Of a stretch of DNA of 64,000 nt, positions 42,064 through 63,687 are shown in pieces (position 1 is the first letter of the stretch; each line of letters starts with the position of its first letter). Where the stretch lies: contig NZ_KB899503.1 of the NCBI RefSeq assembly GCF_000378245.1, forward strand, positions 62,001 through 126,000, written 5' to 3'. The notes beneath the pieces are model-generated. The model ran no database searches, was not told the DNA's origin, and saw only the letters and a list, made by a program, of their open reading frames with translations. Position numbers and translations under genes: made by a program. The DNA comes from Aromatoleum toluclasticum ATCC 700605. Lineage in GTDB: Bacteria > Pseudomonadota > Gammaproteobacteria > Burkholderiales > Rhodocyclaceae.

Positions 42064-42279
42064 CTAGCGGACGGAGGAATTCGCCGATGCTTCCGGCGTG
42101 TCGGCGCGAAGGGTCTCCCGCGCGCGAAAGCGCTCCACCGCCTGGTTGAACTCCGCGATCGATTCGTCGCTCACCTTCGTGCCGCACTCATAGCAGGTGT
42201 CGTGGATGCGGTCGAACCAGCGGCAGCCGCACTGCTCGCACGCGAGCTCGGGCGCGCCGGCGGGATTTTGGAAGATCAT
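42064..42279 (-). CDS. Small zinc-ribbon protein
   Basis: A 71-residue protein with a rubredoxin-like knuckle pair CEQCGC (about residues 14-19) and CYECG (about 29-33), spaced as in zinc ribbons, then a helix (SIAEFNQAVERFRARE). It overlaps the upstream unknown gene by four bases (ATGA). It could bind zinc and act as a subunit or assembly partner of an enzyme of the operon. Function unknown. Confidence 0.75.
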   Translation of the reverse strand: MIFQNPAGAPELACEQCGCRWFDRIHDTCYECGTKVSDESIAEFNQAVERFRARETLRADTPEASANSSVR

Positions 42280-42767
42280 CGGCAGGCTCCGAGGAAGGCA
42301 AGGCCGAGCGTATCGAGGAATTCCTCGTAGCCCGCGTCCTGAAGTTCGAATTTCGTGCGCAGCACGAAGAACATGATATGCCCCTGCCGGATCAGTCGCT
42401 TGATCAGCGACAAGCTGTCTCCGGCGAGGCTCGCGCGCATCGCTTCGAGCGCCGCGTCGTCCGCGACGAACAGGAGATCCACGCGCGCGTCCTGGAAGCC
42501 GCGGTAGGGCATCAGGCTGGCGTTCATGCCGCTGCCGTGGGCGGTCCACTTCATCATCGGCACGTCGCCGTGGTTGTCGACGAGCCCCGCGACATGCTTG
42601 CCGGGCTGGATGCCCGAGCCGCTCCGCGGCACAAAGCCGACCGACGAGCCTTCGTCCATGTCGGTGAAGAGCACGGCGCACCGGTCGAGCATGGTTTGCC
42701 AGGGCGCGAGGTCGCCGAAGCAATCCTCTGCGGTCGCGAGTTCGTCCGCTTCCAGTTCAATCTGCAT
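42276..42767 (-). CDS. Unknown protein in the aromatic operon
   Basis: A 163-residue soluble protein that I do not recognise. It contains PWQTMLDRCAVLFTDMDEGS, GKHVAGLVDNHGDVPMMKW, GMNASLMPYRGFQDARVDL and ends in a helix with FLGACR. GGAGG precedes the ATG at 42767. The start lies inside the end of the thioesterase gene (11-base overlap), and its stop overlaps the zinc-ribbon start, so it is firmly part of the catabolic operon. Confidence 0.75.
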   Translation of the reverse strand: MQIELEADELATAEDCFGDLAPWQTMLDRCAVLFTDMDEGSSVGFVPRSGSGIQPGKHVAGLVDNHGDVPMMKWTAHGSGMNASLMPYRGFQDARVDLLFVADDAALEAMRASLAGDSLSLIKRLIRQGHIMFFVLRTKFELQDAGYEEFLDTLGLAFLGACR

Positions 42768-43320
42768 GCTTGCCTCCGTCAGTTTCCCGCCGCGTGCCGT
42801 CGGCGGGAATGGAAAGACCATCGGGCGCGATCTCCGGCACCGGCTGGCAATAGCGCCCGAGACGCTCACGGATGTCCGTGGGGATCGCCACCGACTTCAT
42901 CGTCTCGAGGTCCATCGTGACGAGCGTCTGCCTGGCCCGCAGGCGCAGCTCATCGCCGACCCGTCCCTGCACGTCGAGATTGATGGAGCTTTCGCCGATG
43001 CGCGTGACGGTGAGCCCGAGCACGAGCGCGTCGCCCATCCGGCTCGGCCGCGTGAAGGTGCAGTCCATGCGCACCGTCGGAATTCCGAGCCGGCGCGTCA
43101 TGATCAGATCCGCGAACGAGGTGCCGAGCCCGTCCGCGAGCCAGTCTTCGACAAGCCCGTTGAGGAGCACGAAGTACTGCGGATAGAACACGATGCCCGC
43201 CGGGTCGCAATGCGCGAAGCGCACCAGCACCTCGCGCTCGAACATCGCCGGGCGCGCCGGAGCGGACTTCCTCGCTTCGGCGTCGCCGACGAACGCGATG
43301 GCGTTGCTGAGGTCTGTCAT
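42757..43320 (-). CDS. Hotdog-fold acyl-CoA thioesterase (4HBT type)
   Basis: A 187-residue protein of the 4-hydroxybenzoyl-CoA thioesterase family: VRFAHCDPAGIVFYPQYFVL with the catalytic Asp in the DPAG loop, then FTRPSRMGDALVLGLTVTRI. It likely hydrolyses aryl-CoA esters and could release trapped CoA intermediates in the pathway. AGGGAG eight bases upstream supports the ATG used. It follows the dehydrogenase/hydratase gene by 88 bases. Confidence 0.87.
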   Translation of the reverse strand: MTDLSNAIAFVGDAEARKSAPARPAMFEREVLVRFAHCDPAGIVFYPQYFVLLNGLVEDWLADGLGTSFADLIMTRRLGIPTVRMDCTFTRPSRMGDALVLGLTVTRIGESSINLDVQGRVGDELRLRARQTLVTMDLETMKSVAIPTDIRERLGRYCQPVPEIAPDGLSIPADGTRRETDGGKHAD

Positions 43321-43408
43321 CGTGGTATCTCCCTTGCGCGTGGTCATGGGCCCAATGTATCCACGCGCCGCCTCGGGCGCCCCCCCCACCCGGTATGGCC
43401 CCCTCCCC

Positions 43409-45424
43409 TCACGGCGTCTTCGTGAAATCCGGCTTGCGCTTCTCCTGGAAGGCCGTGATGCCTTCGCGGGCAGCGGCCGTGCAGGCGCTGTCGCCCCACG
43501 CGAGGTAGCCGATCTCCAGCGCATCCTCGAACGTCGGCGCAGCTGCTGCGGCCTCCACTGCCCGCTCGAGGATGCCGATGACTTCGGCGCTGAGCGGCTG
43601 GCCGCTGGCGGCGACCGGGGCGATGGGGTCGAGCCGGGCGATCTCCACCGCGCCGTCCGGGATGCCCCCCACATTGCCGTCGAGCGCCTTGACGCGGGCC
43701 ACGGCGGCCTGGATGAGTTCCGGATAGTCGCGGGCGAGTCCGTCGACGACGCCCAGCTCGAACGCCTTCGTCGCCTTCAGCCGCTCGGCCCGGCGCAGCA
43801 TGCCGTGGAATTCGGCCGACGCCTGCGGCCAGCGACGATACGGCACGACCATCGCGCCGATGCCGTGGACGATGCCGAGCGTGATCTCGGGCATCTGCAT
43901 CCAAGCGCTCGCCAGCGCGACGATGCCGTGGCAGCGCATCGCCAGTTCGAAGCCGCCGCCGAGCGCCATGCCGTTGATCGCGGCGACAACCGGCTTCTTC
44001 ATGCGATCGAGATGCACGAGCAGACGCGAACAGTCGCGGGCGTACTGCGCGGACGCTGGCGCATCGCCGAGCATGTTGACGAAGCGCCCGATGTCGCCGC
44101 CGGCGCAGAACGCGCGGTTGCCGTAGCCGACGAGGACGAAGCCCGCCACGGCCGGATCGTGTTCGAAGCGCTGGATGACGGACAGGATCTCGTCGGTCAA
44201 TTCGTCGTGGAGCGCGTTCAGGGCTTCGGGGCGACGCAGCGTGATGACCTTGACGTCGCCGATGTCGTCCACGAGCACATGGCGCAGGAAGCCCTGGTAG
44301 TCGCCGAGCGGTTTTCGCGCCGCCGGCATGCCGCGGCGCTCGTCGCAGAAGTGCGCGAGCATGCGGCCAGCGTCGGCCTCGCCGAGATCGCGCATCAGCT
44401 CCAGCGGCCCCTTCTTGAACCCGAGCGCCTGACGGCAGCCGAAATCGAGGTCGGCCGGTTCCCCGATGTCGCGGTCGAGGATGTCCACCGTCTGCGAGAA
44501 CAGCACGCCGAGCAGGCGTTCACGCACGATCGACACTGTATCGTCCGCGACGCCGACGGGCTTTCCGGGGGGCGCGGTCAGCCAGCGGTCGACCGAGCGG
44601 AACACGAGCGCGGGGCGATAATGCTCGCCTTCGAGTTCGGCCTGCAGCGTGTTCGTCTCGGTGATGATCGGATTGCCATTGGCGAGGTTCAGGACGAAGA
44701 ACGGCCCCGCGTGCACGAACTCGCCCGCGACGCTGTCGATCTCGGCCGCGGTCGCACGGTCGAGCAGCAGTCCCGACTCGTTGCACCAATTGTCGAAGAT
44801 CCGGTCGAGCATGAAGCACGCCACGTCGTCGGTGACGAGCGGCACCTTGCCGGTCGTGCAGAATACCCAGCGCAGGTATTCGACGACGGCCGGATCGGTG
44901 CGCGCCCAGCGGACGACCTCGACGACCGGGTTGCGCCAGGCGGGGGCGAAGAAGTGCGTGACGGTGGCGCGCCCGGGGTGCTTCAGCGCGGAAAAGATCT
45001 GCGCTGCCGGCAGCGAGCTCGTATTCGACGTGATCAGCGCGTCCGCTGCGACGACCGCCTCGACGTCGGCGAAGATGCGGCGTTTCAATGCGAGGTTCTC
45101 GGTTGCCGCCTCGAGCACCCAGTCCGCTTCTGCGAGGTCGCGATAGTCGAGCGTGCCGACGACGCCAGAGGTGACCGCCGCGGCTTCGGCCTCGTTCATC
45201 TTGCCTTTCGCGACCGCTTTTGCGGCGTAGTCCGCGAAGCGCTGCAATGCACTGTCGAGGGCCGCCTGGGCGACATCGACGAGGATCAGCTTCAGGCCCG
45301 GCAATGCGCTCTTCAGGTAATAGCCGATGTCCGGACCTATCGTGCCGGCGCCGATTATCGCGACGGTGCGCGGCAGCGGGCGCTGCGGCGTGGCGAGCAG
45401 CGGATTGGCGAAACGGGTGACCAT
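43409..45424 (-). CDS. Fused 3-hydroxyacyl-CoA dehydrogenase / enoyl-CoA hydratase
   Basis: A 671-residue bifunctional beta-oxidation enzyme with dehydrogenase first and hydratase last, the reverse of FadB. The NAD site is AIIGAGTIGPDIGYYL (about 21-36), catalytic His in THFFAPAWRNPVVEV; the dehydrogenase C-terminal domain runs to about 340. The crotonase domain (about 365-640) has the oxyanion loop FCAGGDIG and both catalytic Glu residues (LGGGFELAM, QMPEITLGI). In the indoleacetate scheme it converts 2-aminocinnamoyl-CoA to the 3-oxo-acyl-CoA for thiolysis. GGAGG precedes the ATG; the gene begins the minus-strand operon. Confidence 0.9.
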   Translation of the reverse strand: MVTRFANPLLATPQRPLPRTVAIIGAGTIGPDIGYYLKSALPGLKLILVDVAQAALDSALQRFADYAAKAVAKGKMNEAEAAAVTSGVVGTLDYRDLAEADWVLEAATENLALKRRIFADVEAVVAADALITSNTSSLPAAQIFSALKHPGRATVTHFFAPAWRNPVVEVVRWARTDPAVVEYLRWVFCTTGKVPLVTDDVACFMLDRIFDNWCNESGLLLDRATAAEIDSVAGEFVHAGPFFVLNLANGNPIITETNTLQAELEGEHYRPALVFRSVDRWLTAPPGKPVGVADDTVSIVRERLLGVLFSQTVDILDRDIGEPADLDFGCRQALGFKKGPLELMRDLGEADAGRMLAHFCDERRGMPAARKPLGDYQGFLRHVLVDDIGDVKVITLRRPEALNALHDELTDEILSVIQRFEHDPAVAGFVLVGYGNRAFCAGGDIGRFVNMLGDAPASAQYARDCSRLLVHLDRMKKPVVAAINGMALGGGFELAMRCHGIVALASAWMQMPEITLGIVHGIGAMVVPYRRWPQASAEFHGMLRRAERLKATKAFELGVVDGLARDYPELIQAAVARVKALDGNVGGIPDGAVEIARLDPIAPVAASGQPLSAEVIGILERAVEAAAAAPTFEDALEIGYLAWGDSACTAAAREGITAFQEKRKPDFTKTP

Positions 45425-45659: not shown

Positions 45660-46580
45660 TCAGAACGCCGACAGGGGTTTCGACGCGATGCCGGGCGATT
45701 CCACGCCGTGGCGCAGCGTGTCCACCATGGCCGCGGCGATCTCGTCGGTCGAGCGCCGGCCTTCGCGATACCACACGTGCACCCAGTTCAGGAAACTCAG
45801 GAGCATCAGCCGCAGCAGGCTGCGGTCGGCACCGGGTGCGAGCGGCAAGTCCTCGATGAGCCCGCGGTAGACGTTCTCGTAGGCTTCGCGCATCGGGCGG
45901 ATCTTGGCGAAGAGTTCCGGGTTGCCCGTCATCGCGAGGCTGTGACCGGTGACGCGGTCGATATAGGTGCCGCTGGTGATCGCCGCGACGTGCACCTGGC
46001 AGACGCGGGTGAGTCGCTCCCACGGATCGCTCGCACCGGCCAGCGCGTCTGCGACGGCGGCCATCAGGCGCCGGAAGCCTTCCCGGTGCACAGCCAGATA
46101 GAGCTCTTCCTTCGACGCGAAATAATGGTAGATCGACCCGGGCAGGAGCCCGACCCGGCTGGCGATGTCGCGAATGGAAGTGCTGTCGTAGCCCTGCTCC
46201 GCGAAGAGCGCGGCCGCCGCATCGAGGATCACCTGACGGCGGTCGGGCGGCTCGCCGTCGGTCGCGGCGTCGGCGGAGACGAGCTGCGCAGCGAGCGCCC
46301 CGCGCGCCAACAATCCGCGCTGGGTATCGGTCAGCGCCGAGACGCCCTCGCTCGTCGATTGCGCGATCGCCCGCAAGCGTTTCACGGCAGTCTCGAGGCC
46401 GTGCTTCTGCCAGATGTAGCGCACCCCGGAGGGCGAAATCGCGAATCCGTCGCGCCGCAGCCGCGCCGAGACCGCGGCCTGGCCCAGCCCCGGCTCGTCG
46501 CGCGCGAGCCCAAGGATCGCAGCCTCGACGTCCGGGGCGCGACGCTCTTCTTCATGGCAGGCATCAAGGCTCATGCGCAT
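45660..46580 (-). CDS. TetR-family regulator with extra N-terminal helix-turn-helix
   Basis: About 306 residues, longer than normal TetR proteins (about 200). Residues about 15-70 form an additional helix-turn-helix of the integrase/transposase type (LGQAAVSARLRRDGFAISPS, GVRYIWQKHGL). The TetR domain begins near residue 115: ILDAAAALFAEQGYDSTSIR, VGLLPGSIYHYFASKEELY. The C-terminal part (about 175-300) is the ligand pocket. It lies between the two catabolic operons; TetR regulators here usually respond to acyl-CoA intermediates. Several start codons (46583, 46580, 46574) are possible and none has a good ribosome site. Confidence 0.85.
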   Translation of the reverse strand: MRMSLDACHEEERRAPDVEAAILGLARDEPGLGQAAVSARLRRDGFAISPSGVRYIWQKHGLETAVKRLRAIAQSTSEGVSALTDTQRGLLARGALAAQLVSADAATDGEPPDRRQVILDAAAALFAEQGYDSTSIRDIASRVGLLPGSIYHYFASKEELYLAVHREGFRRLMAAVADALAGASDPWERLTRVCQVHVAAITSGTYIDRVTGHSLAMTGNPELFAKIRPMREAYENVYRGLIEDLPLAPGADRSLLRLMLLSFLNWVHVWYREGRRSTDEIAAAMVDTLRHGVESPGIASKPLSAF

Positions 46581-47546: not shown

Positions 47547-48755
47547 ATGACACGCTACACGGCCGAAATTCCGTACGGCGCCTACTGGAGCACGCCCTTC
47601 GCGCGCTGGCAGGGCAGTTTCGCGTCGCTGCACAGCGTGCGCTTCGCCGCGCACGTCGCGCGCAACGAACTCGCGAAGCGGAACATCGACCCGCAGTCGA
47701 TAGACTACGGCGTGCTCGGCTTCTCCGTGCCGCAGCAGCAAGCCTTCTACGGCCTGCCCTGGCTCGCCGGTCTGGTCGGTGCGACGCGCGCCGGGGGGCC
47801 GACGATGATGCAGGCCTGCGCGACCGGCGTTCGGACGCTCCTCGCCGCGGCGCAGGAGATCGAAGCCGGTCTCGCCGAGGTCGCGCTGGCGGTCAATTGC
47901 GATCGCACCTCGAACGGCCCGCATCTCTACTATCCGAATCCGAAAGGCCCCGGCGGCACCGGCGCGTCCGAGAACTGGGTCATGGACAACTTCGGCTGCG
48001 ACCCGCTGGGCGGACATTCGATGTTGCAGACGGCGGAGAACGTCGCGGCAAAGCACGGTGTCAGCACGGCCCGGCAGCACGAACTGGTGCTGCGGCGCGA
48101 GGCGCAATACGCCGATGCGCTGAAGGACGACTCGGCCTTCCTGCGACGTTTCATGACGCTGCCGTTCGACGTGCCGAGCGCGGACTTCCGCAAGAGCGCG
48201 GGTTCGCTCGACGGCGATGAAGGGGTGTCCCGATCGACGGCCGAGGGCCTCGCAAAACTGAAGCCGGCGATGGAAGGCGGCACGGTAACGTACGGCGCCC
48301 AGACGCACCCGGCCGATGGCAATGCGGCGATCCTGGTAACAACGCCCGAGCGCGCGAAGGAGCTGTCGCGCGACCCGTCCATCGCGGTGCGCCTGCATGG
48401 TTTCGGCCTGGCGCGCACCGCACTCGCCCACATGCCCGAAGCGATGATCCCGGCTGCGCGGCGAGCGCTAGATCAGGCTGGCCGCGGCATCGCCGACATG
48501 ACCGCGATCAAGACCCATAACCCGTTCGCGGTAAACGATATCGTCTTCGCCCGCGAGACCGGTGCAGATCTCGACCGCATGAACAACTACGGCTGCTCGC
48601 TGGTGTGGGGCCATCCGCAGGCGCCGATGGGCACACGCGCGATCATCGAGCTCGTCGAGGAGTTGACGTTGCGCGGCGGTGGCTTCGGGCTTTTCACCGG
48701 CTGCGCGGCGGGTGACACGGCGATGGCGGTGGTCGTCGAGGTCGGCGACCGGTAA
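47547..48755 (+). CDS. Thiolase family protein (acyl-CoA acetyltransferase)
   Basis: A 402-residue thiolase. The acylated Cys is in MMQACATGVRTL (about 90), the second Cys in LFTGCAAGDTAMA, and the His of the GHP motif in LVWGHPQAPMGTR; the NEAF box reads HNPFA, as in some thiolases with HDAF-type boxes. It would cleave the 3-oxo-(2-aminophenyl)propionyl-CoA intermediate to 2-aminobenzoyl-CoA and acetyl-CoA. It follows the GntR gene by 55 bases. By gene order this would be IaaA of Aromatoleum, which I cannot confirm. Confidence 0.88.
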   Translation: MTRYTAEIPYGAYWSTPFARWQGSFASLHSVRFAAHVARNELAKRNIDPQSIDYGVLGFSVPQQQAFYGLPWLAGLVGATRAGGPTMMQACATGVRTLLAAAQEIEAGLAEVALAVNCDRTSNGPHLYYPNPKGPGGTGASENWVMDNFGCDPLGGHSMLQTAENVAAKHGVSTARQHELVLRREAQYADALKDDSAFLRRFMTLPFDVPSADFRKSAGSLDGDEGVSRSTAEGLAKLKPAMEGGTVTYGAQTHPADGNAAILVTTPERAKELSRDPSIAVRLHGFGLARTALAHMPEAMIPAARRALDQAGRGIADMTAIKTHNPFAVNDIVFARETGADLDRMNNYGCSLVWGHPQAPMGTRAIIELVEELTLRGGGFGLFTGCAAGDTAMAVVVEVGDR

Positions 48756-48943: not shown

Positions 48944-50476
48944 ATGGACCTGTCCGAATGGATCGTCCGTCACGCCGGGCTCGCGCCCGACAAGACGGCA
49001 ATCCGCTTTCCGGAGCGCGACCTCACGTACGCGGCGTTCGCCGCGGACATCGAGCGGCTCGCGTCGGCGCTGCATGCGTCGGGCGTGGAGCGCGGCGCCT
49101 GCGTCGCGTTTCTCGGCTACAACCGGCCCGAGACGCTCGCGGCGCTGTTCGCCTGTGCACGTCTGGGCGCGCTGTTCCTGCCGCTGAACTGGCGGCTCGC
49201 GGGGCCCGAGCACCGGCAACTGCTCGCCGACTGCCCGCCCACGGTGCTGCTCGTCGAGCCGCGCTTCGTCGAACAGATCGACGCCTTCCGGGATGAGCTC
49301 GCGGGCGTGACGCTGGTCGTATTCGGCGCGCCACCGGCGGGCTGGATCGCCTTCGACGACCTGATGCGGCGCGGCGGCCTGCCCGTGGCGCGCGACCCGC
49401 GGGTCGGGCCCGGCACGCCGCTGCTGATCTGCTACACCTCGGGCACGACGGGCAAGGCCAAGGGCGCACTGCTGACCCAGGACGCGCTGGCGTGGAACGC
49501 CGCGAACAGCGTCGACCTGCATGAATTCACGGGCGGCGACCGCATCCTGACGACGTTGCCGCTGTTCCACGTCGGGGGGCTCAACAACCAGACGACCCCT
49601 GCCCTGTCGCTGGGCTGTACGGTCGTGCTGCATCCGAAATTCGACGTCGACGCGAGCTTCGACGCGATCGAGCGCGAACACATCACGCTGACCGTCCTTG
49701 TGCCGGCCCAGATCGAGGCGATGTTGGCGCACCCGCGCTGGGCGAAGGCCGATCTGTCCAGCCTGAGGATGATCACGACGGGCTCGACGATCGTGCCCGA
49801 CCGGCTGATCCGCGCCGTGCACGAGCGCGGCATCCCCCTCGTGCAGATCTACGGCTCGACCGAAACCTGCCCGATCGCGGCCTATGTGAAGGCTGCCGAC
49901 GCGCGGACCCACGCGGGCGCGGCTGGACGGGCGGCACTCCATTGCAGCGTGCGCGTCGCCGGCGACGGCGGTGCCGACGCGAAAGCGGGGACCAGCGGTG
50001 AAATCCTGGTGTGCGGCCCGAACGTGATGACGGGCTACCTGAACAACCCACAGGCCAGCGCCGCCGCGCTCAAGGACGGCTGGTTCCACACCGGCGACAT
50101 GGGGCACTTCGATGCCGAGGGCTGGCTCTGGGTCGATGGTCGCAAGAAGGAAATGATCATCTCCGGCGGCGAGAACATCTATCCGGCCGAGATCGAGAAC
50201 CTTCTCGCCGAATCCTCCGACATCGCCGAAGTTGCGGTTGTCGGCCGCCCCGACGAGCGCTGGGGCGAATGCGTCGTCGCGGTCGTCGTCAGGCACGAAG
50301 GTTCGGCTCTGGACGCCAGCGGGGTGCTGAAACTCCTCGACGGCCGCATCGCCCGCTACAAGCTGCCGAAGGAAGTGTTGTTCGTCGACGAACTCCCGCG
50401 CACCGCGCTGGGCAAGGTCCGCAAGGACGACGTGCGCCGGCTGGTCGCGCGCAAAACGTTCATGGAGCACATCTGA
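48944..50476 (+). CDS. iaaB: Acyl-CoA ligase (AMP-forming), probable indoleacetate-CoA ligase
   Basis: A 510-residue adenylate-forming enzyme: P-loop CYTSGTTGKAKG (about 163), YGSTET (about 303), the Trp-Phe-His-Thr-Gly-Asp block GWFHTGDMGHFDAEGWLW, hinge region GRKKEMIISGGENIYPAEIE and the C-terminal catalytic Lys in RTALGKVRKDD. It forms the CoA ester of an aromatic acid with ATP. The gene order around it matches IaaB of Aromatoleum, a ligase for indoleacetate. The ATG at 48944 has a strong GGAGGAGG site upstream; an ATG nine codons earlier is less likely. Confidence 0.85.
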   Translation: MDLSEWIVRHAGLAPDKTAIRFPERDLTYAAFAADIERLASALHASGVERGACVAFLGYNRPETLAALFACARLGALFLPLNWRLAGPEHRQLLADCPPTVLLVEPRFVEQIDAFRDELAGVTLVVFGAPPAGWIAFDDLMRRGGLPVARDPRVGPGTPLLICYTSGTTGKAKGALLTQDALAWNAANSVDLHEFTGGDRILTTLPLFHVGGLNNQTTPALSLGCTVVLHPKFDVDASFDAIEREHITLTVLVPAQIEAMLAHPRWAKADLSSLRMITTGSTIVPDRLIRAVHERGIPLVQIYGSTETCPIAAYVKAADARTHAGAAGRAALHCSVRVAGDGGADAKAGTSGEILVCGPNVMTGYLNNPQASAAALKDGWFHTGDMGHFDAEGWLWVDGRKKEMIISGGENIYPAEIENLLAESSDIAEVAVVGRPDERWGECVVAVVVRHEGSALDASGVLKLLDGRIARYKLPKEVLFVDELPRTALGKVRKDDVRRLVARKTFMEHI

Positions 50477-54290: not shown

Positions 54291-55420
54291 ACTTCGACCT
54301 TTCGGACGAACAGCGCGCGATTCGCGACACCTTCGCGCGCTTCTGCGACGAGCGCATCGCCCCCCAGGCGGCCGCGCTCGACGAAGCGCACGCCTTCCCC
54401 CGGGCGCTGTTCCGCGAGCTCGCCGAGCTCGGCTTCTTCGGCATGCGCTATCCGGAATCGGTCGGCGGTACCGGGCTCGCGCTCACCGAGTTCTGTCTCG
54501 CGCTGACCGAGGTCGCCCGCGGCTCGATGTCGCTCGCCGGGGCGGTCGCGATGCAGTCGCTGATGGGCACGAAGTTCCTGCAGCTCCTCGGCAACCCGGA
54601 CATCGTCGAACGCCTCTTCAAGCCGGCGCTGCGCGGCGACAAAATCGGCGCGATCTGCATGACCGAGCCGAACGCGGGCTCGGACCTCGAGTCGATCGCG
54701 ACGACCGCGACAAAGGTGGACGGCGGCTACGTGATCAACGGGCAGAAGACGTGGATCACCTCCGCGCCGCTCGCCGACTTCTTCACCGTCTTCGCCCGCG
54801 CCGGCGACGAGAAGAAGCTGACGATCTTCCTCGTCGAGAAGGAGTCCCGGGGCCTCGTCGTCGGCCGCGAGATCCACAAGATGGGCGTGTGGGCGCTGCC
54901 GACCTCGGAAGTCGCCTTCAACGACTGCTTTGTGCCTGACAGCCATCGCCTGTCGAAGGAGGAAGGCGACGGCGAAGGGCATCTGCGCAAGACGCTAGCC
55001 GAGATTCGCATCATCACCGGCGCGATGGCGCTCGGTGTCGCGCGGGCGGCGCTCGATGAAGCCGTGCGTTATGCCGGCGAGCGCCAGCAGTTCGGCAAGC
55101 CGATCAACCGCTTCCAGGCGATCCAGCTGAAACTCGCCGAGATGGCGACCGGGCTGGAGGCCGCCACCGCCCTCGTCCACCGCGCCGCATGGCTGTGCGA
55201 CGCGAAGCGCCCGCACCACAAGGAGGCCGCGATGGCGAAGCTCTTCGCGACCGAGACGGCCGCATCGATCTGCGATCAGGCCGCGCGCGTGCTCGCGTCC
55301 TACGGCTACGCGATGGAGTACCCGGTGCAGCGTTACCTGCGCGACGTGCGCTTCACGCTGATCGGCGGCGGCACCAGCGAAATCCTCAAACTCGTCATTG
55401 CGAAGGAGCTCAGCGCATGA
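54287..55420 (+). CDS. iaaF: Acyl-CoA dehydrogenase, probable (2-aminobenzyl)malonyl-CoA dehydrogenase (decarboxylating)
   Basis: A 377-residue acyl-CoA dehydrogenase: FAD-binding MTEPNAGSDL and WITSAP, ERQQFGKPINRFQAIQ, and the C-terminal VQRYLRDVRFTLIGGGTSEI. The usual catalytic Glu in the last block (YEGTSEI in common enzymes) is Gly here. That fits an enzyme that creates the carbanion by decarboxylation and needs no base, as proposed for benzylmalonyl-CoA dehydrogenase. Product would be 2-aminocinnamoyl-CoA and CO2. Start and stop both overlap neighbours by four bases. Confidence 0.87.
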   Translation: MNFDLSDEQRAIRDTFARFCDERIAPQAAALDEAHAFPRALFRELAELGFFGMRYPESVGGTGLALTEFCLALTEVARGSMSLAGAVAMQSLMGTKFLQLLGNPDIVERLFKPALRGDKIGAICMTEPNAGSDLESIATTATKVDGGYVINGQKTWITSAPLADFFTVFARAGDEKKLTIFLVEKESRGLVVGREIHKMGVWALPTSEVAFNDCFVPDSHRLSKEEGDGEGHLRKTLAEIRIITGAMALGVARAALDEAVRYAGERQQFGKPINRFQAIQLKLAEMATGLEAATALVHRAAWLCDAKRPHHKEAAMAKLFATETAASICDQAARVLASYGYAMEYPVQRYLRDVRFTLIGGGTSEILKLVIAKELSA

Positions 55421-55824
55421 ACGACACCACACAACAACGCCGCATCCGCGTGCTGCTCGCGAAGCCGGGTCTCGACGGTCACGACCAGGGCGCGAAAGTG
55501 GTCGCCCGCGCGATGATGGACGCCGGCTTCGAAGTCATCTACACCGGCCTGCGGCAGACGCCGGAACAGGTGAGCCGCATCGCGCTCGACGAGGACGTCG
55601 ACGTGATCGCGCTCTCGTCGATGGCGGGCTCGCACCTGCCCTTCTGCCGCAAGTTGAAGCCACTGCTCGAAGCGAACGGCCTCGACGACAAGCTGTGGAT
55701 GATCGGCGGCAACCTGCCGGCCCAGGACCACGACGCGCTGCGCGAGCTGGGCTTCAAGGGCATCTTCCCGACCGGCTCGAAGCTCGACGCGATCGCAGAT
55801 TACATCCGGGAGAACGCTGCATGA
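55417..55824 (+). CDS. iaaG: B12-binding small subunit of acyl-CoA mutase
   Basis: A 135-residue cobalamin-binding domain: the DxHxxG motif is GLDGHDQGAKVVARAM (His is the lower cobalt ligand), followed by IALSSMAGSHLPFC and WMIGGNLPAQD, GIFPTGSKLDAI. It is the separate small subunit of a methylmalonyl-CoA-mutase-type enzyme; the large subunit follows with a four-base overlap. The pair should interconvert (2-aminophenyl)succinyl-CoA and (2-aminobenzyl)malonyl-CoA. Confidence 0.9.
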   Translation: MNDTTQQRRIRVLLAKPGLDGHDQGAKVVARAMMDAGFEVIYTGLRQTPEQVSRIALDEDVDVIALSSMAGSHLPFCRKLKPLLEANGLDDKLWMIGGNLPAQDHDALRELGFKGIFPTGSKLDAIADYIRENAA

Positions 55825-57434
55825 ACGACCGCGTGCAATCGACCGTGAAACGCGTCACCAACGAATCCGGTCTCGAAGTCCAGCCGCTCTACACCGCCGA
55901 CGACGTCGCGGCGAGCGGCGGCGACGCGATGATCGGCCTGCCCGGGGAATATCCCTTCACGCGAGGCATCCACCGCGAGATGTACCGCAAGCAGCCCTGG
56001 ACGATGCGGCAGTACGCGGGCTTCGGCAATCCTCAGGACACCAACCAGCGCTTCAAGTACCTGATCGCGAACGGGCAGACGGGCCTCAACGTCGCCTTCG
56101 ACCTGCCGACGCAGATCGGCCTCGACTCGGACGACCCGCTCGCGCAGGGCGAGATCGGCCGCGTCGGCATGTCGGTCGACACGCTGCGCGACTTCGAGAT
56201 CGCGTTCGACGGCATCGACCTCGACAAGATCACGGTGTCGATGACGATCAACGGCGCGGCGGCGATCGCGATCGCGATGTACCTCGCGATGGCCGAGAAG
56301 CGCGGCTACGACGTGAAGCAGCTGCGGGGCACCGCGCAGAACGACATCCTCAAGGAGTTCATCGGCCGCGGCACGTGGATCTTCCCGGTCGAGCCGTCGA
56401 TCAAGCTCGTGGGCGACACGATCGAGTACTGCGCCGAGCACGCGCCCAAGTACAGCCCGGTGTCGGTTTGCGGCTACCACATCCGGGAATCCGGGGCGAC
56501 GCCGGCCGAGGAAATGGCCTATGCGTTCTGCATCGCCCGCGCCTACGCGGACGAAGTCATCGCACGCGGCCTGCACGTCGATGAGTTCGCCGGGCGCCTG
56601 TCATACAACTTCAATATCTTCGGCAACCTCTTCGAGCAGGTCTGCAAGTTCCGCGCGGGGCGCAGCTTGTGGGCGAAGATCATGAAGGAGGAATACAAGG
56701 CCGAGAAACCGGGCTCGATGTGGCTGCGCATGATCGCGGCCGGCGGCGGCGGCGGGCTGACCTTCGAACAGCCGGAACTCAACATCGTGCGCGGCGCGTA
56801 CTACGCGCTGATCAGCGCGCTCTCGGGCACGCAGACGATGGCGCTGTGCTCCTACGACGAGGCCTACACGATCCCTACCGAGTATTCCGCGCGTATTTCG
56901 CTGCGCACGATGCAGATTCTCATCGAGGAAATGGGCCTCACCGAGACGGTTGACCCGCTCGGCGGCTCGTACTACGTCGAGACGATGACGAACCAGATGC
57001 GCCAGAAGATGGAAGAGATCATCGCCGAGACCGACGCGCAGGGCGGCATCGTCAAGCTGGTGTCCGAAGGCGCGATCCAGGCCAAGGTCTCCGCGCAGGC
57101 GTACAGGATGCAGCGCGACATCGAGAGCGGCAAGTTCCCGAAGGTCGGCGTCAATTGCTACCGCAACGACCAGGAAGACGAGCATCCGGTCGAATTCCAC
57201 GCTTACAACGAGGACGACGCACGCGTGCAGGTCGAGTCGCTGAACCGCGTGCGCGCCGAACGCGATGCGGCACGGGTGACGCGTGCGCTTGCCGCGGTGG
57301 GCGATGCGGCGCGGGCCGGCACGAACGTCATGCCGGCGATCGTCGAGGCGGTGAAGGCCTACGCGAGCGTCGGGGAGATCACGCAGGAACTGGTGAAAGT
57401 GTTCGGACGGTACCAGGAACCGATCCGCTTCTGA
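55821..57434 (+). CDS. iaaH: Large subunit of B12-dependent acyl-CoA mutase
   Basis: A 537-residue TIM-barrel catalytic subunit. The substrate-side residues are visible: PWTMRQYAGFG (Tyr equal to Tyr89 of Propionibacterium methylmalonyl-CoA mutase), GTAQNDILKEFIGRGTW (Arg equal to Arg207, binding the free carboxylate). Tyr plus Arg mark a dicarboxylic acyl-CoA substrate and exclude isobutyryl- or 2-hydroxyisobutyryl-CoA types. The position of Ser114 is Asn (GLNVAFDLP), which may reshape the pocket for an aryl group. Context points to the indoleacetate pathway rather than propionate use. Confidence 0.9.
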   Translation: MNDRVQSTVKRVTNESGLEVQPLYTADDVAASGGDAMIGLPGEYPFTRGIHREMYRKQPWTMRQYAGFGNPQDTNQRFKYLIANGQTGLNVAFDLPTQIGLDSDDPLAQGEIGRVGMSVDTLRDFEIAFDGIDLDKITVSMTINGAAAIAIAMYLAMAEKRGYDVKQLRGTAQNDILKEFIGRGTWIFPVEPSIKLVGDTIEYCAEHAPKYSPVSVCGYHIRESGATPAEEMAYAFCIARAYADEVIARGLHVDEFAGRLSYNFNIFGNLFEQVCKFRAGRSLWAKIMKEEYKAEKPGSMWLRMIAAGGGGGLTFEQPELNIVRGAYYALISALSGTQTMALCSYDEAYTIPTEYSARISLRTMQILIEEMGLTETVDPLGGSYYVETMTNQMRQKMEEIIAETDAQGGIVKLVSEGAIQAKVSAQAYRMQRDIESGKFPKVGVNCYRNDQEDEHPVEFHAYNEDDARVQVESLNRVRAERDAARVTRALAAVGDAARAGTNVMPAIVEAVKAYASVGEITQELVKVFGRYQEPIRF

Positions 57435-57444: not shown

Positions 57445-58311
57445 ATGACAGCAATCGAAAGATATGCCGCGCCGCAGAGCCTCGATGAGGCGCTCGGCAT
57501 CCTGCAGCAGGGCGAAGTGACGATACTGGCCGGCGGCACCGATCTGATGCCGCAGACCAAGGCCGGCCGCGTCGCGTTCAAGCCGACGCTGATGAACATC
57601 GGCCGTGTCGCCGGACTGAAGGGCGTGACGCTCGACGGCCAGCACCTGCGCATCGGCGCGCTCACCACGATCAGCGAGCTCCTCCGCGATCCGCTCGTCG
57701 CGCAGCACGCACCGGTGCTCGCCGAGGCCTGCGATCACTTCGCGAGCGACCAGATCCGCAACGCGGGCACGCTCGGCGGCAACATCAACAACGCCTCGCC
57801 CGCGGGTGACACCCTCGTACCGCTGATCGTGCTCGACACGGAAGTCGAGCTCGCATCGAAGCCGAACGGCTCGGTCGCGACGCGTCGCATGCCGCTCGCC
57901 GAGTTCTTCACCGGCCCGGGCAGGACCAAGCGCAACGCGAACGAGCTGCTGACCGCGGTGCGCATCCCGCTGCCGAAACCGGGTCACGTCGCGCGCTTCT
58001 ACAAGTTCGGCACGCGCCCCGCGCTCGACATCTCGACGATCTCGATCGGCATCGCCGGCGTCATGCGCGACGGCACGCTCACGAACACCCGCGTCGCGTT
58101 CGGCGCCGTCGCCCCGACGCCGGTACGCGCGCCGCGCACCGAAGCCGCGCTCGAAGGCCGCCGTCTCGACGCCGGAGCGATCGAAGCCGCCGCCGACGCC
58201 GCGCGCGACGAGGTGAACCCGATCGACGATATCCGCGCGAGCGCCTGGTACCGCAAGGAACTGATCCATAACATGACCAAGAGGATGCTCGACCATGTCG
58301 CTCAAGCATGA
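57445..58311 (+). CDS. Molybdenum hydroxylase FAD subunit
   Basis: A 288-residue FAD-binding protein of the xanthine dehydrogenase/CO dehydrogenase family: TILAGGTDLMPQTKAG (about 31) and the second flavin contact IRNAGTLGGNINNASPAGD (about 108). It lacks the [4Fe-4S]-binding insert found in 4-hydroxybenzoyl-CoA reductase beta subunits, so it should act as a normal hydroxylating dehydrogenase. The order FAD, [2Fe-2S], Mo resembles hcrBCA. It starts ten bases after the mutase gene with GAGGAACGATCA upstream. Remembered order would make this iaaI. Confidence 0.88.
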   Translation: MTAIERYAAPQSLDEALGILQQGEVTILAGGTDLMPQTKAGRVAFKPTLMNIGRVAGLKGVTLDGQHLRIGALTTISELLRDPLVAQHAPVLAEACDHFASDQIRNAGTLGGNINNASPAGDTLVPLIVLDTEVELASKPNGSVATRRMPLAEFFTGPGRTKRNANELLTAVRIPLPKPGHVARFYKFGTRPALDISTISIGIAGVMRDGTLTNTRVAFGAVAPTPVRAPRTEAALEGRRLDAGAIEAAADAARDEVNPIDDIRASAWYRKELIHNMTKRMLDHVAQA

Positions 58312-58768
58312 CATCGAATTCACTCTGAACGGCGTCACAAAAAGGCTCACCGTCGACGTCACGATGAACGCGCTCGACATGCTGCGCGACGTCGTCGGGC
58401 TGACCGGCACGAAGTACGGCTGTGGCGAGGGCGAGTGCGGCGCGTGCACCGTTCGCGTCGATGGCGAGACGCGCAATTCCTGCCTGATGTTCGCGGTCGA
58501 TCTCGACGGCCGGGACATCGTCACGATCGAGGGCCTCGCCGCCGATCCGAAAGCGGACGCGCTGCGCGACGCCTTCGTCGAGCACGGCGCGGTGCAGTGC
58601 GGCTTCTGCACGCCCGGCATGGTCATGCAGGCGGCGCACATTCTCGACACGAATCCGGACGCGGACGCCAACGCGATCAAGCGCGGCCTCGAAGGGAACC
58701 TGTGCCGCTGCACCGGCTACAAGAAGATCGTCGACGCGGTCGAATCCGCGTGCTGCGGCGGGCGATGA
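58295..58768 (+). CDS. Molybdenum hydroxylase [2Fe-2S] subunit
   Basis: A 157-residue protein with two [2Fe-2S] clusters: plant-ferredoxin type in GCGEGECGACTV plus NSCLMFAV, and the helical second cluster in VQCGFCTPGMVMQAA and NLCRCTGYKKIV. It passes electrons from the molybdenum site to FAD. It overlaps the FAD subunit gene by 17 bases, which supports tight coupling. Remembered order would make this iaaJ. Confidence 0.93.
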   Translation: MSLKHDIEFTLNGVTKRLTVDVTMNALDMLRDVVGLTGTKYGCGEGECGACTVRVDGETRNSCLMFAVDLDGRDIVTIEGLAADPKADALRDAFVEHGAVQCGFCTPGMVMQAAHILDTNPDADANAIKRGLEGNLCRCTGYKKIVDAVESACCGGR

Positions 58769-58781
58769 GGAGAACGACAGC

Positions 58782-61190
58782 ATGAACGTCGCAGAAAAAC
58801 CCGTGATCGCACCCGAATCCCTGATCGGCCAGCGCATCCAGAAGAAGGACGCACCCGAAAAGGCCGCCGGCAAGACGCGCTACATCCAGGACATGATCGT
58901 GCCGGGCGTGCTGCACGCGAAGATCCTGCGCTCGTCGCGCGTGCATGCCAAGATCAAGAGCATCGACACCTCCGCGGCGAAGGCGCTGCCGGGCGTCCAT
59001 GTCGTCCTCACCGCGGCGGACGTGCCCGACCAGCAGCCGATCGGCGTCGCACGCGACCATCTGCCGCTGAAGGGCGAACGCGTGCGCAGCCTGCGCGACG
59101 AGATCGCCGCGGTCGCCGCCGACAGCGAGGAGATCGCCGAGGCGGCCTTGCGCCTGATCCGCGTCGAATACGAGGATCTGCCGATCGTCGCCACGCCCGA
59201 GGACGCAATCAAGCCGGGCGCGCCGCTGATCCACCCTGTCCCGCTCGCCGCCGACGGCCAGCCGAAGGCGCTGCCACCGAAGACGCCGATCGCATTCGCA
59301 GGCAAACCCGACAACATCGCGATGCGCTTCGACTACACGCACGGCGACGTCGCGCAGGCCGAAGCCGAGTCCGACGTGGTCGTCGAGGACACGTTCCAGC
59401 TGCATTACGTGACGCACTGCTGCATGGGCGTATCGGGCGTCATCGCCGAGTTCGACGCCTCCGGCAACCTGCTGATGTATTCGAACACGCAGGTGCCCTT
59501 CCTGCACAAGCGCGAGTTCGCCGAGTACCTGAACATCGACCCGAGCCGCGTGCGCATCATCCAGCCCCCGATCGGCGGCGGCTTCGGCTCCAAGCTCGAT
59601 ATCTACCCCTTCGAGGTCATCTGCATCTTCCTCGCACGCGCCGCGAAGCGCCCCGTGAAGATGGTTTTTACGCGCGAGGAGGAGTTTCTTGCGTCGCCGA
59701 CGCGCCAGCCGGTGCTCTTGACGCTGCGCTCAGGCTGCAAGAAGGACGGCACGCTGACCTTCCGCCAGGTCCATACGCTGCACGACAACGGCGCCTACAC
59801 GTCGTGGGGCGCGACCACGCCCTTCGTGATGATGCAGACCTTCTCGTCGCTGTACCGCGTGCCGGCCTGCGACTACCACACGACCGTCGTCTACACGAAC
59901 AACCCGTACGCCGGCTCCTTCCGCGGCTACGGCAACCTGCAGGCGACCTTCGCCATCGAGCAGCACATGGACATGCTGGCCGAGAAGATCGGCATGGACC
60001 CGCTCAATTTCCGCATCAAGAACGCGCAGGACGCCGGCGAAGTCACCGGCCAGGGCATGAGCTTCAAGAGCTGCGGCTTCAAGGAGTGCCTGACGACCGC
60101 CGCCGAGCGCAGCGACTACCGGAAGAAGCACGCCGACAACCTCGCCAACCGCGACGCGCCGGGACCGGTGAAACGCGGCATCGGCATGGCGTCGATGCTG
60201 CACGTGGGCGGCGGCGCGAAGATCTACCCGTCGGACGGCTGCGGCACCATCCTCAAGCTCGACGACTTCGCGAACGTCACGCTCATCACCGGCGCATCCG
60301 AGATCGGACAGGGCTCGGAGACGGTCCTGTCGCAGCTCGTCTGCGAGGAGCTGGGGCTGCCGATCTCGGCGGTCACCGTCGTCAATAACGACACCGCGAT
60401 CACCCCGTGGGACGTCGGCGTGCATGCGAGCCGCACGACCTTCATCGCCGGCAACTCGGCGATCGGCGCGGCGCGCAAGGCGAAGGCGAAGATCCTCGCG
60501 GCGGCGGCGAAGAAGCACGGCTGCGACGAGGCGATGCTCGACCTGCGCGGCGGCTTCGTCGTCGTCGCCGAGACCGGCGAGCCCGTGGTCGAGCTCGCAC
60601 GCCTGATGCGGAACCTCCACTTCTCCGACAAGGCCGAGCTCGTCATGACGACCTTCTATTACGAGCCGCCGAGCGTGCACCAGGACAAGGGCTTCAAGGG
60701 CGACGTGTCGGCCGCGTACGCGTGGGCGACGCAGGTCGTCGAAGTCGAGGTCGATACCGACACCGGCATCGTCAAGATGACGAAAGTCACCGGCACGCAC
60801 GACGTCGGCCGCGTGCTGAACCGCCTCGGCCTCGAAGGCCAGATCGAAGGCGGCGTCGTCATGGGCCAGGGTTACGCGCTGACCGAGAACCTGATCGTCG
60901 AAAACGGCGTCACGCGCAACCCGAACTTCCGCGACTACAAGCTCGTGACCGCGCCGGAGATTCCGGAGATGGACATCACCTTCGTCGAGTCCATGGATGG
61001 CGAAGGCCCGCAGGGCGCGAAGGGCGTCGGCGAAGCGCCGTCGATCTGCATCGCCGCGGCGGCCGCGAACGCGATCTACAACGCGACCGGGGTGCGCATC
61101 TTCGGCCTGCCCTTCACGCCGGAAGCGGTGTACCGGGCGCTGCGCGGCAAGGCCGAAAAGCCCAACTGGCAAGCGTGGAAATCGGCATGA
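58782..61190 (+). CDS. Molybdenum hydroxylase large (molybdopterin) subunit
   Basis: An 802-residue Mo-cofactor subunit. Cofactor-binding blocks are [15 protein letters not shown] (about 266), [19 protein letters not shown] (about 380), [13 protein letters not shown] (about 507) and the catalytic Glu loop [20 protein letters not shown] (about 745). With the two preceding genes it forms a hydroxylase that inserts a water-derived oxygen without O2; in this cluster the expected target is carbon 2 of the indole ring, giving an oxindole. Its stop overlaps the CoA transferase start (ATGA). Remembered order would make this iaaK. Confidence 0.9.
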
Positions 61191-62383
61191 AGCGCCGCAC
61201 CGTACTCTCTATGGAGCAGGCGTTGTCGATGCCCTACGCGACGCTGCGCTTCGCGCAGCTCGGCTGGCGCGTCATCCGCATCGAATCGACGCCGGCCGGC
61301 GACGGCCTGCCCGGCGACCCGAACCGCTATATCGGCGGCACGGTCGCCGACGACGACCGGCGCACCTACTTCATCGCACCGAACGTCGGCAAGGAAGCGA
61401 TCGCGCTCAACCTCAAGGAGCCCGACGGCCAGGCGCTGCTGCGGCGCCTCATCGTCGAGCTCGACGTCGATGTCTTCTGCTGCAACACCGTGCCGCGCCG
61501 CTACAAGCAGCTCGGCATCGACTACGAGACCTTGAGCGCGGCGAAGCCGGAACTGATCTGGGCCGGGATCTCGGCGATGGGCCCCGACTACCCGGACGCG
61601 CCCGGCTACGACCCCGTGATCCAGGCGATGGCGGGCTACATGGAGCTCACCGGCCCCGCCGACGGGCCGCCAACCCTCGCCGGCGTGCCGATCATCGACC
61701 TGAAGGCGGGCGACGAGGTCTATGCGAACGTGATGATGGCGCTGCTCGAACGTGCCGAGAGCGGCAAGGGAACGCGCATCGACGTGTCGATGCTGCAGGC
61801 CGCGGCGTCCTGGCTTATCACGACGCTGCCGCTCATCGACTTCGACTGCCAGCCGTCCGAGATCACGCGCTGCGGAAACGAGCACCGCAAGTTCATCCCG
61901 ACGAACGTCTATCCGACCGCCGACGGCTTCATTTACATGGCGATCGGCAGCGACGTGCAGTGGAAGCGGCTTTCCGCCATCCCCAAGTTCGCGGCGATCG
62001 GCAATGCCGTACGTGCGACCAACGAGGGGCGGCACCGCGACCGCGATTCGATCCACCGCGACGTCGCCGCCGTCACGAGCCGCTATCCGACTACCGAGAT
62101 CGCTGCGGACTTCCGCGACGCCACGATCCCCCACGCGCCGATCCACGACATACCGGCCGTGCGCGACATGGACGCGATCCGGCGACGGCTGACGACGACG
62201 CGCATGCCCGGCGGCAAGCTCGTGCATATGCAGCCCATGGCGGTCGATGTCGCCGGAGCCGATGGTGGAGAGCTGCCGTTTCCGCCGCGCTACGGCCAGC
62301 ACACGGATGCCGTGCTGCGCGAGGCCGGATGCAGCGATGTCGAGATCGGGCTGCTCCATGCGAGAGGGATCATCGCCGGCTGA
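61187..62383 (+). CDS. iaaL: Family III CoA transferase
   Basis: A 398-residue CaiB/BaiF-type CoA transferase: [19 protein letters not shown] at the N-terminus, [18 protein letters not shown], and [20 protein letters not shown] with the probable catalytic Asp, then [14 protein letters not shown]. In Aromatoleum, IaaL moves CoA between carboxylates to give the (2-aminophenyl)succinyl-CoA isomer used by the mutase. The ATG overlaps the stop of the molybdenum subunit; the long open frame upstream is an antiparallel-like shadow of that gene. Confidence 0.87.
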
Positions 62384-62538
62384 GTCCGGGCGCTACATCG
62401 TCATGCGGCGCCCCACCGGGAGGGGCGCCGCCCTCGACTCACCAAGCCCGGAATCCATCGACGGCGAGAGGAGCGCACGGAGCCCATCCGCGCGCGACAA
62501 GAGACCCCCGTGGTCCACATCGTAGGAGACACCAGAAC

Positions 62539-63687
62539 ATGAAGACACTTGGCATTCGGTTGGCGCTGTCCGGGCTCGTGCTGGCTGCGTCGCTGTCGGC
62601 GCACGCCCAACTCAGGATAGGCGTCGTGTCGTCGGCGACCGGCCCGATCGCGCTGGTCGGCATTCCGCAGAAGAACACGGTGCAGCTGCTGCCGGCGAAG
62701 ATCGGTGAGCTCACGGTCGAGTACATCGCGCTCGACGACGCGAGCGATCCCACCGCCTCCGTCACCGCCGTGAAGAAGCTGATCTCGGAGCAGAACGTCG
62801 ACGCCATCATCGGCCCCTCCGGCTCGCCCAACGCGATGGGCGTGATCCAGTTCGTCGCCGATGCGGGCGTGCCGCTCCTCGCCCCGGTCGGCACCGCGGC
62901 CGTCGTGACGCCGATGGACGACAAGAAAAAGTGGGTGTTCAAGACCACCCAGAACGACGACATCATCGCCCGCGCGCTCGTCGAGCACATGGTAAAGGCC
63001 AACGTGAAGACGGTCGGCTTCATCGGTGTCGGCGACCCCTATGGTGAGAACTGGTACAAGGTGTTCTCGGGACTCGCCGACAAGAACGGCATCCAGATCG
63101 TCGCCAACGAGCGCTTCCAGCGCCAGGATGCGTCGGTCACCGGCCAGAGCCTGAAGATCCTCGGCGCGAAACCGGACGCGGTGCTCGTCGCCGCCGCCGG
63201 CGGGCCGGCGGTGCTGCCGCAGACCACCCTCGTCGAGCAGGGCTACAAGGGCCAGATCTATCAGACCCACGGAGCCGCCCTGCCCGACTTCCTCAAGCTT
63301 GGCGGCAAGAAGGTCGAAGGCACGATCCTCGCCGCGAGCCTGATGCTGGTGCTGCCCGAGATCGCCGACACCCACCCGTCGAAGAAGATCGCCGCCGACT
63401 ACATCGCCGCGTACGAGAAGGCCCACGGCACCCGCCCCGCCACCTTCGGCGCCAACGTCTTCGACGCCGGCCTGCTCCTGCAGCGGGCGGTACCCGCCGC
63501 GGCGAAGGTCGCCAAGCCCGGCACGAAGGAGTTCCGCGCCGCGCTGCGCGACAGCCTCGAGCAGACCCGCGAGCTCGTCGGCACCCAGGGCATCTACAAC
63601 ATGAGCACGACCGACCACAGCGGCTTCGACGAGCGCGGACGCGTCCTCATCGCCGTCAGGGACGGCAACTGGACCTTGGCGAAATAA
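62539..63687 (+). CDS. Periplasmic substrate-binding protein (Leu/Ile/Val-binding type)
   Basis: A 382-residue binding protein with signal peptide (GLVLAASLSAHAQ, cleavage after HAQ or SAHA). The fold is type I (Peripla_BP_6): LRIGVVSSATGPIALVG, IIGPSGSPNAMGVIQF, GDPYGENWYKVFSGLADKNG. TAGGAGAC lies upstream of the ATG. It is the last gene of the operon and would bind an aromatic acid for ABC uptake, plausibly indoleacetate. No permease or ATPase genes follow; the liv genes at the other end of the window are 60 kb away. Confidence 0.9.
   Translation: MKTLGIRLALSGLVLAASLSAHAQLRIGVVSSATGPIALVGIPQKNTVQLLPAKIGELTVEYIALDDASDPTASVTAVKKLISEQNVDAIIGPSGSPNAMGVIQFVADAGVPLLAPVGTAAVVTPMDDKKKWVFKTTQNDDIIARALVEHMVKANVKTVGFIGVGDPYGENWYKVFSGLADKNGIQIVANERFQRQDASVTGQSLKILGAKPDAVLVAAAGGPAVLPQTTLVEQGYKGQIYQTHGAALPDFLKLGGKKVEGTILAASLMLVLPEIADTHPSKKIAADYIAAYEKAHGTRPATFGANVFDAGLLLQRAVPAAAKVAKPGTKEFRAALRDSLEQTRELVGTQGIYNMSTTDHSGFDERGRVLIAVRDGNWTLAK

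Follow-up and report, generated by a model that had tools for sequence, protein, structure and literature searches.

Gene content and organisation of the iaa locus

The window analysed here is a stretch of 64,000 nucleotides from Aromatoleum toluclasticum ATCC 700605 (contig NZ_KB899503.1, positions 62,001 to 126,000), in which a block of 18 genes was examined as a candidate iaa operon for the degradation of indole-3-acetate (auxin). An earlier note, made from the letters alone, had placed a probable complete iaa gene set at 42064-63687. These limits proved right, being the exact outer ends of a zinc-ribbon gene and a periplasmic binding protein gene, and the block consists of this stretch together with a LuxR/MalT-type regulator (39355-42033) that lies beyond them. 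Gene models were set by translation and families by Pfam and NCBIfam. All 18 frames are intact, and each family that had been listed (coenzyme A (CoA) ligase, two-subunit lactamase, acyl-CoA dehydrogenase, mutase, hydroxylase, CoA transferase, thiolase and dehydrogenase/hydratase fusion) has a Pfam match above the curated cut-off in an intact frame; the presence of intact genes for every enzyme named is thus confirmed. The genes beyond that list are a 4HBT-type thioesterase, a TetR regulator with an N-terminal helix-turn-helix (HTH) extension, the binding protein and the LuxR/MalT-type regulator. The block is composed as follows, with protein lengths in amino acids (aa) and identities to the A. 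aromaticum EbN1 locus.

39355..42033, minus strand: LuxR/MalT-type ATPase regulator, 892 aa; GerE HTH above cut-off, AAA_16 just below, MalT-like below cut-off; 77% to EbN1, in the same place
42064..42279, minus strand: small zinc-ribbon protein, 71 aa; CxxC...CxxC invariant in 5 aligned homologues; EbN1 match over 54/71 residues
42276..42767, minus strand: 163-aa protein without known family; C-terminal GACR invariant in 6 aligned homologues
42757..43347, minus strand: 4HBT-type acyl-CoA thioesterase; PF13279 and PF03061 (longer frame)
43409..45424, minus strand: 3-hydroxyacyl-CoA dehydrogenase/enoyl-CoA hydratase fusion, 671 aa; 3HCDH_N, 3HCDH and ECH_1 (longer frame); 78% to EbN1
45660..46580, minus strand: TetR regulator with N-terminal HTH extension; TetR_N at 119-165 (numbering of the 307-aa frame); 71% to EbN1
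47547..48755, plus strand: thiolase, presumed last step to 2-aminobenzoyl-CoA; Thiolase_N/C; 84% to EbN1
48944..50476, plus strand: CoA ligase IaaB (indoleacetate activation); AMP-binding; 79% to EbN1
50476..52596, plus strand: IaaC, ATP-dependent lactamase alpha subunit, 706 aa; Hydantoinase_A; 89% to EbN1; within the IaaC clade
52593..54290, plus strand: IaaE, ATP-dependent lactamase beta subunit, 565 aa; Hydantoinase_B; 95% to EbN1
54287..55420, plus strand: IaaF, decarboxylating acyl-CoA dehydrogenase, GGG for YEG; Pfam family and motif; 92% to EbN1
55417..55824, plus strand: B12-binding small subunit of the mutase (IaaGH); PF02310; DxHxxG motif
55821..57434, plus strand: large subunit of the mutase (IaaGH); PF01642; methylmalonyl-CoA mutase-type Tyr/Arg pair present
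57445..58311, plus strand: molybdenum hydroxylase, flavin adenine dinucleotide (FAD) subunit; PF00941 and PF03450; 82% to EbN1
58295..58768, plus strand: molybdenum hydroxylase, 2Fe-2S subunit; PF01799 and PF00111; 85% to EbN1
58782..61190, plus strand: molybdenum hydroxylase, molybdopterin subunit; PF02738 and PF20256; 91% to EbN1
61187..62383, plus strand: IaaL, family III CoA transferase; PF02515; conserved Asp
62539..63687, plus strand: IaaM, periplasmic binding protein; PF13458; 86% to EbN1

Read from right to left, the minus-strand genes run from the TetR regulator through the fusion, the thioesterase, the 163-aa protein and the zinc-ribbon protein to the LuxR/MalT-type regulator. The plus-strand genes begin with the thiolase, followed by the CoA ligase, hydantoinase A and B, the acyl-CoA dehydrogenase, the B12-binding and large subunits of the mutase, the FAD, 2Fe-2S and molybdopterin subunits of the hydroxylase, the family III CoA transferase and the binding protein. 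From the ligase through the CoA transferase, the genes overlap or nearly abut (50476/50476, 52596/52593, 54290/54287, 55420/55417 and 55824/55821), and this tight spacing of the catalytic genes is as in a single operon. The region between the divergent TetR regulator and thiolase genes has no terminator-like site and two promoter-like matches against 0.1 in shuffled sequences, matches that carry no functional evidence.

The gene content bears on whether an aerobic auxin pathway, iac or iad, could have been mistaken for iaa, as these also degrade indoleacetate in proteobacteria (PMC9613470). The iad route requires the ring-hydroxylating dioxygenase IadDE (PMC9613470), whereas none of the 18 genes was found to encode a dioxygenase subunit, and the enzymes that are present belong to a CoA-dependent route. 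For iac, with no direct protein comparison, the argument is that iaa accounts for all 18 genes. The substrate of iac and iad is thus shared and the chemistry differs, so that an aerobic pathway is refuted by gene content and hardly deserves any credence.

Correspondence with the iaa operons of EbN1 and A. evansii

The reference locus used for EbN1 (G005) matches both published EbN1 iaaF primers exactly, at the two ends of iaaF. G006 likewise matches both, so that G005 is either EbN1 or a strain identical to it at the primer sites. The IaaC of 707 aa and IaaE of 564 aa in the tblastn spans of the reference locus have the sizes printed for EbN1 in PMC8453981. All 18 genes of the block are collinear and on the same strands in this locus, with identities of 70-95% (tblastn), the matches being partial for the zinc-ribbon protein (54/71 residues), the thioesterase (135/196) and the TetR regulator (277/306). 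So close an agreement in gene order goes well past what chance would give.

In A. evansii, copy A of the cluster holds the same 18 genes at 83-97% identity, while 14 of the 18 were found on the examined stretch of copy B, where the contig stops just beyond the fusion gene. The KB740 genome of this species contains these two copies of the iaa cluster (L112/L113 and L114/L115), with IaaF proteins 97% and 95% identical to that of the window, and an extra copy of the gene for the 163-aa protein on another contig (C320). In A. anaerobium, 13 of the 18 genes stand at the iaaF locus and the remaining five about 30 kb off. IaaF relatives 95-98% identical to the window protein come from A. evansii (in two copies), A. 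toluvorans and A. toluolicum, and A. anaerobium has one at 92%.

Given the collinear orthology of all 18 genes and the iaaF primer sites in the reference locus, the block is almost certainly the known, published iaa operon in another Aromatoleum, and as such it would be already known. The comparison with EbN1 and A. evansii bears out the identity and gene order proposed in the earlier note, and thereby confirms the whole published auxin route in a further member of the genus. The operon resembles iaa of EbN1 and A. evansii KB740 in its 18 genes, their order and strands, the GGG motif of IaaF and the subunit sizes, and it differs from EbN1 in leaving no room for iaaD, in 5-30% sequence divergence and in having a related second cluster directly downstream.

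The iaaF gene was matched in 19 of 61 genomes (E<=1e-100), including 12 of the 17 genus members searched, the source genome among them; at the same threshold, iaaF had no match on plasmids. Because the genus does not always carry the operon, it might be intact but silent or non-functional in the source strain. The 18 intact frames and their 70-95% conservation with the reference speak otherwise, and such a loss of function is given very little weight. Some iaaF-bearing loci vary in structure. L101, a betaproteobacterial iaa-like locus, has an IaaF 80% identical to that of the window and hydantoinase genes at just 37% and 30%; its HydA falls outside the IaaC clade, so its lactamase may have been replaced or its own lactamase may be located elsewhere. 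In L103 and L105, the IaaF matches span 1203 and 1200 bases at 77% identity, against a usual 1131, and this excess of approximately 70 bases points to an inserted segment in the protein.

Catalytic motifs, lactamase phylogeny and the proposed route

The replacement of YEG by GGG is the signature of the IaaF subclass (PMC8360864). GGG is present in the window protein and in each of the 79 rows that are readable among 80 relatives; the remaining row ends before the motif. In the large subunit of the mutase, a Tyr/Arg pair is kept in 76 of 76 readable rows from 77 matching loci. These residues align with Tyr89 and Arg207 of methylmalonyl-CoA mutase, and the pair fits a predicted substrate with a free carboxylate. 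The DxHxxG motif of the B12-binding small subunit is kept in all 78 loci with a match, the Asp of the CoA transferase in 59/59, and the Cys/His/Cys residues of the thiolase in 63/63. The glutamate of the hydroxylase is kept in 60 of 66 rows, and the other six rows do not reach the site.

A HydA tree of 27 rows (15 of the 80 relatives hand-picked for spread, seven from fully read loci and five paralogues from the same genome) places the window protein within the IaaC clade of 19 with support of 100/100. The lactamase shares its two-subunit ATP-dependent lactam hydrolase architecture with the caprolactamase CapAB/hydantoinase/5-oxoprolinase family, whereas the CapA and CapB models score far below their equivalog cut-offs here (676 of 1000 and 395 of 1000 bits). 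Lactamases of the hydantoinase type, like acyl-CoA mutases, act on many substrates, and Hydantoinase_A matched at six further places in the same genome; the same enzymes might accordingly serve a different lactam or arylsuccinate. Such a substrate is considered very improbable in view of the gene-for-gene orthology with EbN1 iaa, the GGG motif and the position of the lactamase in the IaaC clade.

Taking the block as the iaa operon, its gene content, order, orthology and catalytic motifs, as established here, allow the published route to be laid over it. IaaM would bind indoleacetate and IaaB would activate it to the CoA ester, after which the three-subunit molybdenum enzyme would hydroxylate C2 with water. 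IaaCE would then open the lactam with ATP to give (2-aminophenyl)succinyl-CoA, IaaL would shift CoA to the other carboxyl, and the B12 mutase IaaGH would form (2-aminobenzyl)malonyl-CoA. IaaF, which is active on the analogue benzylmalonyl-CoA (PMC8360864), would oxidise and decarboxylate this intermediate to 2-aminocinnamoyl-CoA, from which 2-aminobenzoyl-CoA and acetyl-CoA would arise through the hydratase/dehydrogenase fusion and the thiolase. The enzymes are predicted to be active and induced in the source strain; according to PMC8453981, expression of the cluster is raised in anaerobic growth on indoleacetate. The EbN1 cluster is described with two regulator genes, iaaQ and iaaR (PMC8360864), and the operon here would presumably be regulated by its TetR and LuxR/MalT proteins.

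Electron acceptor and anaerobic context

Certain points weigh against this assignment of the locus or against its operation as drawn. The iaaC and iaaE genes overlap by 4 bases, leaving no room for a truncated iaaD, a gene that belongs to the EbN1 cluster (PMC8360864), and the EbN1 locus has a gap of approximately 200 bases between iaaC and iaaE. The physiological electron acceptor of IaaF is not known even in EbN1 (PMC8360864), and the Pfam family scan found no electron-transfer flavoprotein gene among the 18 genes. The description of the gene set as O2-independent holds for the chemistry and calls for caution as regards electron transfer, O2 being the sole acceptor demonstrated for IaaF (PMC8360864).

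Genes bzdN, bzdO and bzdQ of benzoyl-CoA reductase were matched far above their cut-offs on the same contig, upstream of the window and approximately 60 kb upstream of iaa (L169, C13:32001-48000). For the gene of the fourth reductase subunit, the other ATPase gene, which lies between the bzd genes, just the domain model TIGR00241 exceeded its cut-off. The BcrA model TIGR02259 stayed below its cut-off at all six places, and below-cut-off matches occurred in 5 of 14 control genomes as well. The genome also holds narG, above cut-off. With bzd genes on the same contig and narG present, complete O2-free use of indoleacetate with nitrate, including use of the pathway product, is plausible, the acceptance of 2-aminobenzoyl-CoA by the bzd-type reductase being putative. 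A second bzd-like set, judged by eye, lies on C2:440001-456000 (L170).

A second, related cluster downstream

The part of the region that looks uncharted, and that is worth following, is a second, 16-gene cluster that lies beyond the window and is separated from the last iaa gene by 1.3 kb (C13:126989-150325; 64989-88325 if window coordinates are counted on; L008:6989-20000 and L009:1-10325). Besides mobB, it has on its minus strand the thiolase, hydA2, hydB2, the large and small subunits of a mutase, a 184-aa protein that no Pfam model matches, ligase 2a, an acyl-CoA dehydrogenase of 585 aa, a reductase of the old-yellow-enzyme type and ligase 2b. Its plus strand holds a winged-helix (MarR-like) regulator, a further hydratase/dehydrogenase fusion and three genes that resemble those of the phenylacetyl-CoA:acceptor oxidoreductase PadBCD. 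A padB homologue elsewhere in the genome, 58% identical to the one in the cluster, belongs by eye to an ordinary pad operon. Compared with the iaa counterparts, the fusion is 88% identical and the thiolase 78%; the two lactamase subunits reach 55% and 50%, those of the mutase 37-38%, the ligases 31-36% and the dehydrogenase 29%.

Among 61 relatives, an orthologue of the second-cluster mutase (E<=1e-150) occurs here and in A. anaerobium only, none being found in EbN1 (G005). A. anaerobium has all 16 genes, unchanged in order and orientation and 73-93% identical, on a contig different from its iaa contig; mobB lies at the limit of the sequence examined there and was seen in part. Among 399 sampled genomes of the order and 398 of the phylum, the mutase was found in the source genome only, and orthologues may be missed because at most three candidates per genome were scored. 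The 354 plasmid records with relatives of this mutase all lie below 60% identity (43.7% for the best ranked), so that no near orthologue occurs on these plasmids. As far as sequence comparison goes, the second cluster is a real unit.

In both strains, the acyl-CoA dehydrogenase of the second cluster has the ordinary YEG in place of the IaaF-type GGG, and the mutase has Gln for Tyr, no Arg at the carboxylate site and a 4-residue insertion beside it. Of the solved structures, 2-hydroxyisobutyryl-CoA mutase (4r3u) is nearest to both mutases, at 407 bits for the second cluster and 499 for the window, and this likeness therefore does not separate them. The hydroxylase and CoA transferase of the window have no match at E<=1e-3 among the 16 proteins, and a PadBCD-like enzyme is found instead. 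The lactamase is sister to the IaaC clade with support of 93/92, just below the star of the tool.

The second-cluster fusion (L009:3833-5848) is 88% identical to the iaa fusion (43409-45424) versus 74% to its positional counterpart in A. anaerobium, and perhaps it was replaced by, or derived from, an iaa copy. On the simplest reading, an iaa copy took the place of the original fusion and is therefore able to perform its function. Between the two strains, however, the membrane subunit PadD2 (73%) has diverged just as far, and the low fusion identity alone thus proves nothing. The fusion was absent at E<=1e-100 in all five searched genus members without iaaF.

Possible substrate of the second cluster

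Taken together, the YEG motif, the altered mutase site, the absence of hydroxylase and CoA transferase and the pattern of the fusion suggest a lactam-opening route that would end in the same 2-aminocinnamoyl-CoA steps and start from a compound without the acetate carboxyl. We consider it rather probable that the cluster encodes a separate lactam-opening route whose starting compound is not indoleacetate and whose end steps are shared with iaa. Another indoleacetate cluster was rejected as a reading on sequence grounds, as it would be expected to show GGG, the Tyr/Arg pair, and the hydroxylase with the CoA transferase. Quinoline and plain 2-arylpropionates were set aside as putative substrates too, the former needing no mutase and the latter no lactamase.

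A guess at the substrate, and a doubtful one, is 3-methylindole (skatole), for which the cluster would be an undescribed parallel anaerobic pathway. Skatole would be hydroxylated to 3-methyloxindole, and ATP-dependent lactam opening would yield 2-(2-aminophenyl)propionate, which would then be activated with CoA. A new kind of B12 mutase would convert the 2-arylpropionyl-CoA to the 3-arylpropionyl-CoA, and ordinary dehydrogenation, followed by the iaa-like hydratase/dehydrogenase and thiolase copies, would lead to 2-aminobenzoyl-CoA. In a variant, the PadBCD-like enzyme would hydroxylate the tertiary carbon and the mutase would act on the 2-hydroxy ester. Skatole as substrate fits the lactamase, ligase, mutase and dehydrogenase, and it does not explain the PadBCD-like enzyme, the reductase, the second ligase and the 184-aa protein.

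The fate and transformation of skatole are called poorly understood in a 2026 paper on its breakdown by a Rhodococcus monooxygenase (PMC13101512). The papers searched, as judged by titles and the start of abstracts, included none on genes for its anaerobic breakdown, with most subscription papers outside this coverage. If the skatole route were true, the cluster would be the first gene set known to us by which this odour compound of manure is degraded without oxygen, and B12 acyl-CoA mutases would gain a new class of substrate.

Small proteins and regulators beside the operon

Two genes and the regulators had been described as unexplained by the known cluster, a view that no longer holds, since all of them stand beside the same genes in EbN1 and A. 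evansii and so do not set the source strain apart. EbN1, A. evansii, A. toluvorans, G002 and G025 all have the zinc-ribbon and 163-aa genes next to the corresponding thioesterase and LuxR genes. The zinc-ribbon protein has no Pfam match above cut-off. The 163-aa protein has no Pfam or NCBIfam match, and a profile of six homologues also matches no Pfam family. Searched against PDB, this profile retrieved three sequences up to E 5, the best being a 45-residue stretch of an LRP2-binding protein (E 0.0009). The single-sequence AlphaFold2 model of the protein has a mean predicted local distance difference test (pLDDT) score of 48.4.

The 163-aa protein follows iaaF closely among the 61 genomes. At E<=1e-30, a threshold picked after the table had been inspected, it occurs in 17 of the 19 genomes with iaaF (missing in G022 and G033) and in none of the 42 without, and at E<=1e-8 in 17/19 and 1/42 (G013, 1.1e-16). 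The Fisher value of this co-occurrence, 3e-13, overstates independence because the genomes are relatives. In A. anaerobium, a block approximately 30 kb from iaaF reads fusion, ligase, binding protein, thioesterase, 163-aa protein, zinc-ribbon protein and LuxR regulator, with the ligase and binding protein identified by eye.

In four genomes from outside the genus, the 163-aa gene lies 30 kb from iaaF or on a different contig, and a zinc-ribbon gene was recognised beside it in three of them (G026, G017 and G046). In G026, its neighbours include a frame that combines MeaB and XdhC/CoxI domains; in G017, they include an XdhC-type gene, a ligase that scores best with the model of the benzoate-CoA ligase family (just below cut-off) and a gene like the N-terminal half of salicylyl-CoA 5-hydroxylase (well below the cut-off of that model). 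Similar neighbour genes were seen by eye in G020 and G046. MeaB is a chaperone of B12 mutases, and XdhC is one of xanthine-oxidase-type hydroxylases. These neighbours point either to a putative role of the small proteins in the maturation of the two cofactor enzymes or to one in the handling of 2-aminobenzoyl-CoA. As the two small proteins and the thioesterase accompany the operon in the Aromatoleum loci that were read, they are testable parts of the pathway.

Among the regulators, the TetR protein (45660-46580) has an N-terminal extension that matches the IS481 transposase model (IS481-type HTH) over residues 11-77 with an E-value of 2.6e-7, and its EbN1 match begins at residue 18. An AraC-family regulator gene at 63754-64000, running on to C13:126785, lies between the iaa operon and the second cluster.

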